Below, one piece after another: positions 40,163-42,981 of a DNA stretch of 64,000 nucleotides; the first letter of the stretch is position 1, and each line of letters begins with the position of its first letter. The notes beneath the pieces are model-generated. The model saw only the letters and a program-made list of their open reading frames with translations, did no database searches and was not told where the DNA came from. Where the stretch lies: NCBI GenBank assembly GCA_028877205.1, contig JAPPHY010000018.1:1-64000 (forward strand), given 5' to 3'. This stretch comes from Chloroflexota bacterium. GTDB lineage: Bacteria > Chloroflexota > Dehalococcoidia > Lucifugimonadales > UBA2985. The position numbers and the translations under genes were made by a program.

Positions 40163-40681
40163 ATGGCCGTTTCCTTGTTCCGTCCCGTTGACGTGGAGGT
40201 GGTTTTCGATGAGCGGTCGTACGGACTTGGCGATAGCATTGGCGTCAAGGTGAAGCTCAGCGCCCGGCGTGACGTGGAGGTCAGGGAGGCCAGGCTGGAC
40301 CTGGTGTGCGAGGAGGAGTTCGCGGAGAGCTACACGGTCAGCGTCCCCAGCGGCCCACCCACGGACTACGGATCACCGTGGGGCCAGTTCGGCGTGTACA
40401 GGGCACCCAAGGTACCCAAGAAGGTGGACCGTGACGCAAAGGAGTCCTACGTACACAGCTCCGCGCTGTTTCTGGAGAACGCCGCGCTCGGTTCGGGCTC
40501 CGTTCAGCAGTTCAGCTTCGACATGCACATCGGTACGGAGCCGCCGCCGCGCGCGTCCGTCGGAAAGTCGCGATGGTGGCTCGAGGCGGTGCTGGACCTG
40601 GCAAGGGCGCGAGACGTGCGGATGAGGCAGAGTGTGAAAGTTGTGGTTCCCGCGGTTCGCAGGCAACAGCTTCAAGGCTGA
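40163..40681 (+). CDS. Arrestin/SpoOM-like beta-sandwich protein
   Basis: The 172-residue protein reads as an all-beta domain: 'VDVEVVFDERSYGLGDSIGV' then 'VREARLDLVCEEEFAESYTV' and 'WWLEAVLDLARARDVRMRQS' resemble the alternating strands of arrestin-like sporulation-control (SpoOM) folds, with the typical 'KSRWWLEA' strand near the end. The molecular role is unknown. It is divergent from argJ, has its own TATAAT (40124-40129) and a good GGAGAGGAGG before the ATG. Confidence 0.55.
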   Translation: MAVSLFRPVDVEVVFDERSYGLGDSIGVKVKLSARRDVEVREARLDLVCEEEFAESYTVSVPSGPPTDYGSPWGQFGVYRAPKVPKKVDRDAKESYVHSSALFLENAALGSGSVQQFSFDMHIGTEPPPRASVGKSRWWLEAVLDLARARDVRMRQSVKVVVPAVRRQQLQG

Positions 40682-40717: not shown

Positions 40718-40747
40718 TTGCGCACCCCACAAGGGCAGGGGTATAAT
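40718..40747 (+). promoter_or_regulatory. Promoter of the 25-codon gene
   Basis: TTGCGC (40718-40723), 18-bp spacer and perfect TATAAT (40742-40747). The start codon lies 33 bp after the -10. Confidence 0.6.
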
Positions 40748-40779
40748 GATATTGAGGCTGGAAGCGGAAGGAGGTAGTA

Positions 40780-40857
40780 ATGGTTCCCAAGTACGTACTG
40801 AACCATAGATGGCACTTCCCTTCTGATGGCCTCGCCGGCCTGGGTGGTGGTGGATAG
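40780..40857 (+). CDS. Candidate 25-residue small protein
   Basis: A short frame begins ATG GTT CCC and ends TAG. The peptide starts MVPKYVLNHRWHFP and ends SDGLAGLGGGG. It has an ideal AGGAGG ribosome binding site 5 nt before the ATG, a perfect TATAAT box about 33 bp upstream and a strong hairpin 160 bp downstream. No known family comes to mind. The His/Trp-rich middle and the run of four terminal glycines are unusual; a modified-peptide precursor, a regulator or a transcript-protecting leader are possible. The frame is short enough to be chance, but the signals argue for translation. Confidence 0.5.
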   Translation: MVPKYVLNHRWHFPSDGLAGLGGGG

Positions 40858-40875
40858 AAGAGTCTAGCTGGGAAG

Positions 40876-40947
40876 ATGAAAGGGCCGGTGAGGCAGCCAA
40901 CGGGGCATCTGACCCCGCACTGGGAGGGCACGGACAATCAGCAGTGA
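40876..40947 (+). CDS. Possible second small frame (23 residues)
   Basis: ATG-to-TGA frame 18 bp downstream, beginning MKGPVRQPTGH and ending WEGTDNQQ. The upstream GGGAAG is too close to the ATG to be a good ribosome binding site. It is listed because it falls inside the same predicted transcript; it may be chance or part of an untranslated RNA. Confidence 0.22.
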   Translation: MKGPVRQPTGHLTPHWEGTDNQQ

Positions 40948-41406
40948 CCAGCGCCCATCCGGTCGGGTAGATCGGGCAAGCCGGGGTCAATGGCTCTCAG
41001 ACAGCAACCCTTGGGGAAAGAGAGGCCCGTCGATTTTGGAGTCGGCGGGCCTCTCCGCGCGCCTGTGGATGGGCGCGCGCCCTCTACGCGAGTCGACTCA
41101 CCGCCCGCTCATTGCGTGTCCCGTACCCGATACGAGGGTGAGCCGGACGAACCGTACGGACGGGTCCGTATACCCCTCCCATACGTCATTCCTGCGGACG
41201 TAGGAATCCTGCCCCCACGCACCGCTGCTGGTCTGCGGCTTTCGCCGCAGTGACGGGGGCGTTCTTGGATGCCTCGGCGGGTTTAGAGCCGGCCCTGCAC
41301 CTGATGTGGGACGAGCCATCCGGAATGCTGCTCTCACGTCTGCGGGAGTGCTATAGCTCTCACATGCGCATGCAAGCGAATAGCAGTGATTGCGCTCCCG
41401 CCGCCC
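40948..41406. other. Non-coding stretch before pncB, with dispersed palindromes
   Basis: No gene is supported. It contains the terminator-like hairpin, an inverted repeat 'attcct-gcggacgt-aggaat' (41188-41207) inside a 'gtcattcctgcg' element of the dispersed type, and a 7-bp stem 'ctgcggc-tttc-gccgcag' (41233-41250) that may end pncB transcription. A 6-bp analogue of the last stem occurs between ahcY and metK. Confidence 0.55.
41020..41055 (+). terminator. Strong hairpin ending the small-gene transcript
   Basis: GAGAGGCCCG (41020-41029) pairs perfectly with CGGGCCTCTC (41046-41055). A G-U pair and CGA/TCG extend the stem to 14 bp around an 8-nt loop. No U-run follows. Confidence 0.65.
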
Positions 41407-42780
41407 CTAGCGTTCGCTCTCCGGCTGCGACGACAGCTCCTGCCTGAGGCGTTGCAGCCCACGGCCCAGCCGCACGGGGTAGCGGGCGGGCCGCCGCAGG
41501 CGCTTGTAGCGTTCGTCCAGGGCCTCGAACTCTTCGCGGAACCGCTCTCGTAGCACCGAGAGCGGCGGCGTTTCCGACGTTGGCTCGCCCCGCTCCATGA
41601 CGGTATGCAGCAGCGGCTCTGCGTCCGGCGTGGGCGGCGCCTCGTCAGCAAGTGCAAGTACGTCGCCCCGGAGGCGTCCATCAGCCCCGCGCAGGCGGAA
41701 CACCTGCTTCTCTCCCGGCAGGGACTCCTTGCCCTCGCTCAGCTTCCGGACTGGGCGGCCTGCGTAACGCACCAGCTTGTAGGCCGCATCCAGCCACGGA
41801 GCGTCGCCGGAGACGGCCATTCGAGTGCCTACGCCGAAAGCGTCGATGGCCGCGCCCTCCCTAACCAGCGAGTCGACGGAGAACTCGTCCAGGCCACCGC
41901 TTGCAAGGATGCGCACGTAGTGCAGCCCCGCGTCGTCCAGGATACGCCGAACCTCGCGGCTGAGTTGCAGCAGGTCGCCGCTGTCCAGTCGAACGGCACG
42001 CAGACGGTGGCCTTGCGCCTCCATCTCGCGGCCTACGGTAACCGCCTTGTGCGCGGCCGCGATGGTGTCGTACGTGTCGATGAGCAAGACGGTGTCGTCG
42101 GGGAAGCTCTCGGCATAGGCGCGGAAGGCGTCGATCTCGCGCTCGAAGCTGGTGACGTAGGAGTGGGCCATGGTACCGGCGATGGGGAGGCCGTAGGCGC
42201 GTCCGGCGAGCACGTTGCTGGTGGAGGCGAACCCTGCGATGTGGCTGCTGCGGGCGGCCTTCATGCCTGCGTCCGTGCCGTGCGCGCGTCGCAGCGAGAA
42301 GTCGACCAGCGTCCTGCCACAGGCAGCCCACGTGCATCGCGCGGCCTTGGTGGCGATGAGGCTCTGGAGGTTGACTTGGTTGATGACCAGCGTCTCGATG
42401 ATCTGGGCCTCTATTATGGGGGCGGTGACCTCTAGGACCGGCTCGTGGTGAAAGTAGAGCCGTCCCTCGGGAATGGCTCGCACGCGGCCGGTGAACCGCA
42501 GCGCGGCGAGGAAGTCCAGGAAGTCGGTTGCGAATGTACCCGTTGAGCGCAGGTAGTCGATTGCGGAAGGGGTGAACCGGAAGTCGTGGAGGTAGCGCAG
42601 CACGTCATCGAGGCCGGCGGAGACAAGATACGAACGCCTCACACGCGAGGGCCTCACGAACAGACTGAACGAGGCCTCGGATGACATCCCCTGGCGGAAG
42701 TAGCCCTGGGCCATTGTCAGCTCGTACAGGTCGGTGAACAGGGCCGCATCGTCCGCGGCCAGGGCGCCGGGCGGCTGCAT
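41407..42780 (-). CDS. pncB: Nicotinate phosphoribosyltransferase
   Basis: The 457-residue enzyme salvages nicotinate into NAD synthesis. It has 'FTDLYELTMAQGYFRQG', the regulatory-phosphorylation His region 'SSHIAGFASTSNVLAGRAYG' and 'GTMAHSYVTSF', and 'AVRLDSGDLLQLSREVRRIL' for PRPP/product binding. The start at 42778-42780 is favoured by GGAGGAGACG upstream and by the conserved 'DDAALFTDLYE' N-terminus; a frame 35 codons longer reads into Arg-rich shadow sequence. It is convergent with the small-protein unit. Confidence 0.92.
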   Translation of the reverse strand: MQPPGALAADDAALFTDLYELTMAQGYFRQGMSSEASFSLFVRPSRVRRSYLVSAGLDDVLRYLHDFRFTPSAIDYLRSTGTFATDFLDFLAALRFTGRVRAIPEGRLYFHHEPVLEVTAPIIEAQIIETLVINQVNLQSLIATKAARCTWAACGRTLVDFSLRRAHGTDAGMKAARSSHIAGFASTSNVLAGRAYGLPIAGTMAHSYVTSFEREIDAFRAYAESFPDDTVLLIDTYDTIAAAHKAVTVGREMEAQGHRLRAVRLDSGDLLQLSREVRRILDDAGLHYVRILASGGLDEFSVDSLVREGAAIDAFGVGTRMAVSGDAPWLDAAYKLVRYAGRPVRKLSEGKESLPGEKQVFRLRGADGRLRGDVLALADEAPPTPDAEPLLHTVMERGEPTSETPPLSVLRERFREEFEALDERYKRLRRPARYPVRLGRGLQRLRQELSSQPESER

Positions 42781-42981
42781 CGGCTGCGTCTCCTCCGTGT
42801 GGCATGGCGGCTCCTCCCACGTGCTGGTCCGGCGGCGCGGGAAAGGCCGTATACGGAGTTTAGGGTCTGTACCAACGTTCGTCAAAGGCGGCGCGTCGGG
42901 CTATTGCAATTGACGGTGGGCCTGTGCGCATAATTCTGCCAGGGCCGCTTGGGCCGACCCGGCGGAGGAGCCTGTAACCGC

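Follow-up and report, generated by a model that had tools for sequence, protein, structure and literature searches.

The locus

The window (the whole stretch of 64,000 nucleotides that was analysed) comes from a 2.0-Mb draft genome in 22 contigs, whose host appears to be a SAR202-group member of the Chloroflexota. Between two of its convergent genes lies a separate unit of about 300 nt, the features of which are collected in Table 1. The initial annotation had described here a TATAAT box, an AGGAGG closely followed by an ATG, a 25-codon frame, a 14-nt hairpin and convergent flanks, and each is found in its place: the spacer between AGGAGG and ATG is 5 nt, the arms of the 3′ hairpin are 14 nt long with 93% complementarity and enclose an 8-nt loop, and the flanking genes face each other across the element. 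A second frame that had been proposed within the unit (40990–41253) has no counterpart in the relatives that were read and is best regarded as incidental. The element strand is more stably folded than its shuffles (z = −2.4). A terminator scan of the window did not list the 3′ hairpin, which has no T-run after it. Two dispersed intergenic repeats lie beyond it (41090–41164 and 41184–41256), with nine further partial copies, 76–97% identical, elsewhere in the same genome.

Table 1. The element, its parts and the adjoining genes, in window coordinates.
Feature	Position	Strand	Details and basis
Upstream gene, 172-aa protein	40163–40681	+	Arrestin-like Pfam matches, sub-threshold
Promoter	40719–40747	+	Weak −35 TGCGCA (40719–40724), spacer 17, consensus −10 TATAAT (40742–40747)
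Shine–Dalgarno AGGAGG	40769–40774	+	Read directly; conserved in relatives
uORF MVPKYVLNHRWHFPSDGLAGLGGGG	40780–40857	+	ATG at 40780, 25 codons, stop 40855–40857; read directly
Core codons N-H-R-W-H-F-P	40801–40821	+	Conserved; synonymous excess; H, W and P conserved
P1 5′ arm, overlapping the uORF tail	40829–40840	+	Start about 10 nt from the Pro codon's first base; folding, own-versus-swapped pairing, fixed spacing to Pro
P1 3′ arm	40883–40894	+	12 pairs with 40829–40840; folding, own-versus-swapped pairing
P2 strand UGACCCCG	40910–40917	+	8 of 8 pairs with S; comparative pairing, RNAalifold
P3 inner hairpin CCGGUC-GGGUA-GAUCGG	40959–40975	+	Comparative pairing, RNAalifold
S strand CGGGGUCA	40982–40989	+	3′ partner of P2; comparative pairing, RNAalifold
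3′ hairpin in terminator position	41020–41055	+	Arms 41020–41033/41042–41055; without U-tract
Nicotinate phosphoribosyltransferase (NAPRTase), next gene 3′ of the element	41407–42885	−	Protein match

A family of elements in the SAR202 group

The analysis is comparative throughout and draws on draft genomes. DNA comparison identified homologues of the element in two other genera of the window's family, together with weaker homologues throughout the order. The search was initially seeded with a degenerate pattern that allowed variation mainly at third positions. In 250 genomes of the order the core DNA pattern AAYCAYNNNTGGCANTTYCC was matched 32 times and its reversed control not once; three of these matches (L035, L040 and L060) are without Shine–Dalgarno sequence and start and were discarded as chance. 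When the core pattern was combined with the Shine–Dalgarno sequence and sought across 84,980 species genomes, 38 stretches were returned. In the stretches from Dehalococcoidia/SAR202 or ‘Chloroflexi’ MAGs the start is in frame and the architecture follows downstream, whereas those from other phyla and from one Anaerolineales MAG show neither. The matches outside Chloroflexota were taken as chance, including the one exception, a Calditrichota match (L067) that has a fortuitous TTG start and none of the remaining family features.

Two sequence-only models (R1 and R2), blind to reading frame and trained on the pattern-found seeds, recover members in 68 of 247 genomes of the order, representing 41 of its 97 genera. 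Outside the order the family is present in at least two genomes of the class, the models having also recovered L109 and L113 from two further families. Weak model matches whose surroundings have no such architecture were rejected (L114–L117, L121 and L123). About two-thirds of the genomes of the order gave no match, with which incomplete MAGs, divergence and true absence are all compatible. In a sample of 400 genomes of the phylum, the only matches were the genome of the window itself and a weak one that does not have the architecture, with no further member recognised, and no family member was found in the phages and viral contigs searched. The element is one copy of an apparently undescribed small-RNA family spread across the deep-ocean SAR202 group. 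Sequence comparison gives good support to each of four points: that the family exists, that it is translated, that it is structured and that it is independent.

Several genomes carry two or three copies by the model search, and one (G192) has two complete stand-alone tandem units, L057 and L082, 521 nt apart. A paralogous class (L174, L175 and L190) is present in the same genomes as the family; its core is NHRW[Q/P]GD in place of NHxWHFP, and it has the same Shine–Dalgarno sequence and a similar promoter and terminator. These paralogues possibly represent a second sensor specificity.

Coding constraint on the leader peptide

Members share the Shine–Dalgarno sequence, a short ORF and a core of the form [N/F/H/Y]-H-x-W-x-[F/Y]-P. 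Across the seven core codons of 66 distinct rows, 74% of single-base differences are synonymous in the uORF frame, compared with 28% and 12% in the other frames (one row, L177, was mis-registered in this count, which leaves the conclusion unaffected). For the 42 members that came from the frame-blind models the corresponding values are 68%, against 32% and 10%, a subset that lessens the bias of the seed pattern even though R1 and R2 were trained on those seeds. Two findings by which the initial annotation would have let the frame fall, the lack of a third-position excess and a broken frame in relatives, were both looked for: synonymous change in the core reaches 68–74%, against 10–32% in other frames, and the reading of relatives did not refute the frame. 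The constraint is also apparent at the amino acid level. The H, W and P residues are each present in 63–64 of the 66 rows and F or Y in 62; position 1 is usually N and more rarely H, F or Y, and position 5 may be H, K, I, Q or others. The F/Y and N/H replacements in the core are conservative.

Among the codons of the P1 5′ arm, just after the core, only 27–28% of differences are synonymous. The uORFs of relatives range from 14 to 54 codons with varying stop positions, and in three of them (L161, L177 and L185) the stop falls one codon past Pro, giving a peptide of 14–15 residues while the start of the P1 arm is kept. Because the coding constraint ends after the core and these three relatives stop so early, only some ten codons matter as peptide and the glycine tail of the window's uORF is incidental. 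Comparison across the family thus shows about ten codons, ending in H-x-W-x-[F/Y]-P, that are evidently translated under purifying selection. A proposed ‘small protein’ is accordingly upheld for these codons and for nothing beyond them. The four C-terminal glycines, to which attention had been drawn, are encoded where P1 has its 5′ arm and loop and do not form a conserved tail. Searches of Pfam and NCBIfam gave no match to the uORF peptide.

The same observations bear on the suggestion that the locus encodes the precursor of a modified peptide. A seven-residue core rich in His, Trp, Phe and Pro is the kind of sequence that might be expected of a RiPP precursor, but here it is N-terminal, the tail is unconserved and dispensable (as the three relatives that end one codon past the core illustrate), no modifying enzyme is consistently adjacent among the mixed neighbours, and a structured RNA downstream is not anticipated for a RiPP gene. 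We consider this reading barely credible.

Initiation differs in a few members: L154 has no in-frame ATG, GTG or TTG near the Shine–Dalgarno sequence, L111 could start only at an ATT, and in L186 the start position is occupied by ACG. These atypical starts hint at weak or unusual initiation.

RNA structure downstream of the core

The layout common to the family is a hairpin, P1, followed by a long-range stem, P2:S, that encloses a further hairpin, P3, and then the terminator. P1 starts at a constant distance, 9–10 nt after the Pro codon; counted from Pro, nucleotide +11 in its arm is C in 65 of 66 rows and +12 is C in 62 of 66. Pairing of P1 with its own 3′ arm is on average 4.4 kcal/mol better than with swapped arms (−29.9 versus −25.5 kcal/mol), and a control stretch gave no such difference. 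Given an alignment of 15 sequences and no structure, RNAalifold returned the 8-bp stem P2:S, with strands some 60–90 nt apart, and within it the 7-bp hairpin P3. In this alignment 93.3% of the P2:S/P3 cells are paired, a value equalled in none of 500 shuffles; when the partner is shifted by one, two or three columns, no more than 48% remain paired. Hand-picked strands from 40 members are 90% paired, compared with 69% when swapped (s.d. 2.4, maximum 78%); several helices were delimited, and some strands chosen, by eye, including those of this swap test. A MAFFT alignment of P3 alone was misaligned and was left out.

Compensatory changes are seen in P1, P2:S and P3. Examples of paired change are GCUUCGC/GCGAAGC in L154, ACUCCG/CGGAGU in L164, GGCUCCAC/GUGGAGCC in L161 and GCUCCGUU/AACGGAGC in L106. 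In a subset of members the outer arm of P3 offers S a second pairing partner, to the exclusion of P2:S; this alternative is weaker (81% of cells), and since the P3 arm resembles the P2 strand it could reflect either a switch or a chance likeness of the two sequences. A two-state switch, with S pairing in turn with P2 and with P3's outer arm, is therefore offered as a suggestion only. A hairpin at the start codon (AUGGU/ACCAU) is present in many members but was dropped as a family feature because it is missing in those with F, H or Y at core position 1. An unpaired motif, GGYGAGGAUA (or GACGAGGAUA), is found between S and the terminator in L036, L161, L173, L193, L105 and L111; it recurs in several families and is similar to a Shine–Dalgarno sequence, yet no ORF consistently follows it.

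Independent transcription and neighbouring genes

Upstream of 45 of 71 members lies a sequence that matches the sigma-70 promoter at 9 or more of 12 positions (2.9 expected in shuffles), and a terminator-like hairpin with a T-run is present in 62 of 71 (22 expected). The copy in the window has a perfect −10, a weak −35 and a terminal hairpin without T-run. By comparison, then, the element is predicted to be an independently transcribed small RNA with its own promoter and terminator. The reading of the locus as a structured RNA with a translated head, one of those offered initially, agrees with the synonymous change in the core, the compensatory change in three helices and these transcription signals.

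Within the window's own family the neighbourhood is kept: ArgJ, the arrestin-like protein, the element, then NAPRTase and SbcC. Elsewhere the neighbours are mixed and include NAPRTase, a MocA-type cytidylyltransferase, threonine aldolase, TyrS, Hpt, a PyrR-like protein, UspA and others (names other than the window's were assigned by inspection of the protein sequence). A small arrestin-fold-like protein, with sub-threshold Pfam matches, is conserved beside the element in two genera of the family (that of the window and that of L084).

The combination of a leader peptide with competing helices is reminiscent of a cis-acting attenuator or leader of the neighbouring gene, and in some members the gene downstream is indeed codirectional (for example TyrS after L160 and L166, a PyrR-like gene after L169). 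In about 50 of 77 members, by a rough gene call, it is convergent, as is the NAPRTase gene of the window; its identity varies between families, with no same-strand gene of constant function after the element across relatives, and the element usually has the separate terminator described above. The core also has no run of codons for one amino acid, as an attenuator would. Because the genes beside the element change from lineage to lineage and the following one mostly runs towards it, a role as cis leader is very improbable.

Relationship to known RNAs

Rfam 15 scans of the window and 14 relatives, riboswitches included, gave sub-threshold chance matches and nothing near a gathering score. The element is not a tmRNA, as it has no match to the tmRNA model and a separate tmRNA is encoded elsewhere in the genome, and identity with 6S RNA was rejected for want of a match to RF00013. 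Five genomes of the window's family have a tmRNA and no Rfam 6S RNA match. Among the papers searched there was no small-RNA study of SAR202 bacteria, and a search on WHFP and Chloroflexi arrest peptides found no known arrest peptide with this core.

Several described RNAs share part of this organisation. Cyanobacterial Downstream-peptide/yfr6 RNAs are of about 250 nt and contain a short conserved ORF, but there the conserved RNA motif is 5′ of the ORF, whereas here the conserved structure lies on its 3′ side, overlaps it and has no Rfam match (PMC2864571). The rnTrpL/peTrpL pair of Sinorhizobium couples a leader peptide to an attenuator RNA with a function in trans; peTrpL, however, derives from the attenuator of the trp operon, while the SAR202 element belongs to no operon, does not contain a run of a single regulatory amino acid and is unrelated in sequence (PMC7298713). 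The dual-function bacterial sRNAs SgrS/SgrT, SR1/SR1P and VcdRP are likewise small stand-alone transcripts that combine a translated short ORF with an RNA part (PMC8672173, PMC5521070), and the element resembles them in having an independent short transcript, as judged by comparison, and a translated short ORF, as judged by synonymous excess in one frame. It differs from them in the fixed spacing between its roughly ten constrained codons and a conserved fold of several helices, and in being conserved within SAR202 at the level of an order with no sequence or Rfam match.

The element might nonetheless be a dual-function sRNA in the usual sense, whose very short peptide acts in trans and whose RNA pairs with mRNAs, translation and folding being uncoupled. 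This would accommodate the conservative replacements in the core, the separate transcription unit and the multi-helix RNA part. It is harder to reconcile with a peptide of only 14–15 residues in three members, it leaves the fixed spacing between Pro and P1 unexplained, and no unpaired seed emerged that is both conserved and matched to a known target. Such uncoupling seems to us rather doubtful.

A proposed model of ribosome-gated folding

In its few invariant residues (H, W, F/Y and P), near what would be the C-terminal end of an arrested chain, the core is similar to ribosome-arrest leader peptides, of which the Erm leaders, of the same type as TnaC, are examples. TnaC too has a short ORF, few invariant residues (Trp, Pro) and a hairpin within reach of the stalled ribosome (PMC10941005). 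The known leaders control a downstream gene in cis, whereas the element, for which arrest is a proposal, has none.

Given the fixed spacing from core to P1 and nothing to regulate in cis, the best explanation is that ribosomes pause at the core and thereby gate the fold of a trans-acting RNA. We give a probability of about one half to this model, that is, to a stand-alone RNA whose leader peptide arrests or times the ribosome beside P1. Specifically, the nascent chain, which is short (about 14 residues by the time the Pro codon is read), would cause the ribosome to pause or arrest at the core; the leading edge of the paused ribosome would lie at the start of P1 and decide whether P1 forms; formation of P1, or its failure to form, would set the folding of the P2:S/P3 domain; and the folded RNA may then act in trans on another RNA or a protein. 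Arrest, gating and action in trans are each conjectural steps that we infer from the arrangement of the conserved parts.

An alternative that dispenses with sensing is that the RNA functions as a noncoding one and the sole task of the uORF is to bring a ribosome or an RNA-binding protein to the RNA's 5′ end, for stability or localisation, the core being a slow or stable pause. The uniformly strong promoters, many with TTGACA, which suggest constitutive expression, would fit such a role, as would the unconserved stop position (14–54 codons). Exact conservation of H, W and P over 41 genera is left unexplained, although a pause could account for it, and overall we think the proposal unlikely.

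Ribosome-gated folding can be taken a step further. The family may constitute a new class of ribosome-gated stand-alone RNA, in which arrest at HxWx[F/Y]P, at a set distance from P1 and perhaps together with a small molecule, makes S exchange P2 for P3's outer arm or the reverse, so that throughout the SAR202 lineage a trans-acting RNA is switched on or off; this is a speculative extension that we would not expect to hold in full. SAR202 bacteria occur widely in the dark ocean. In a conserved RNA whose leader peptide resembles a sensor but to which no gene is attached, sensing by a leader peptide would be separated from the control of genes in cis, and the H, W, F/Y and P residues, the 9–10-nt spacing and P2:S make up a short list of features that bear on whether the position of a ribosome may gate a trans-acting RNA.
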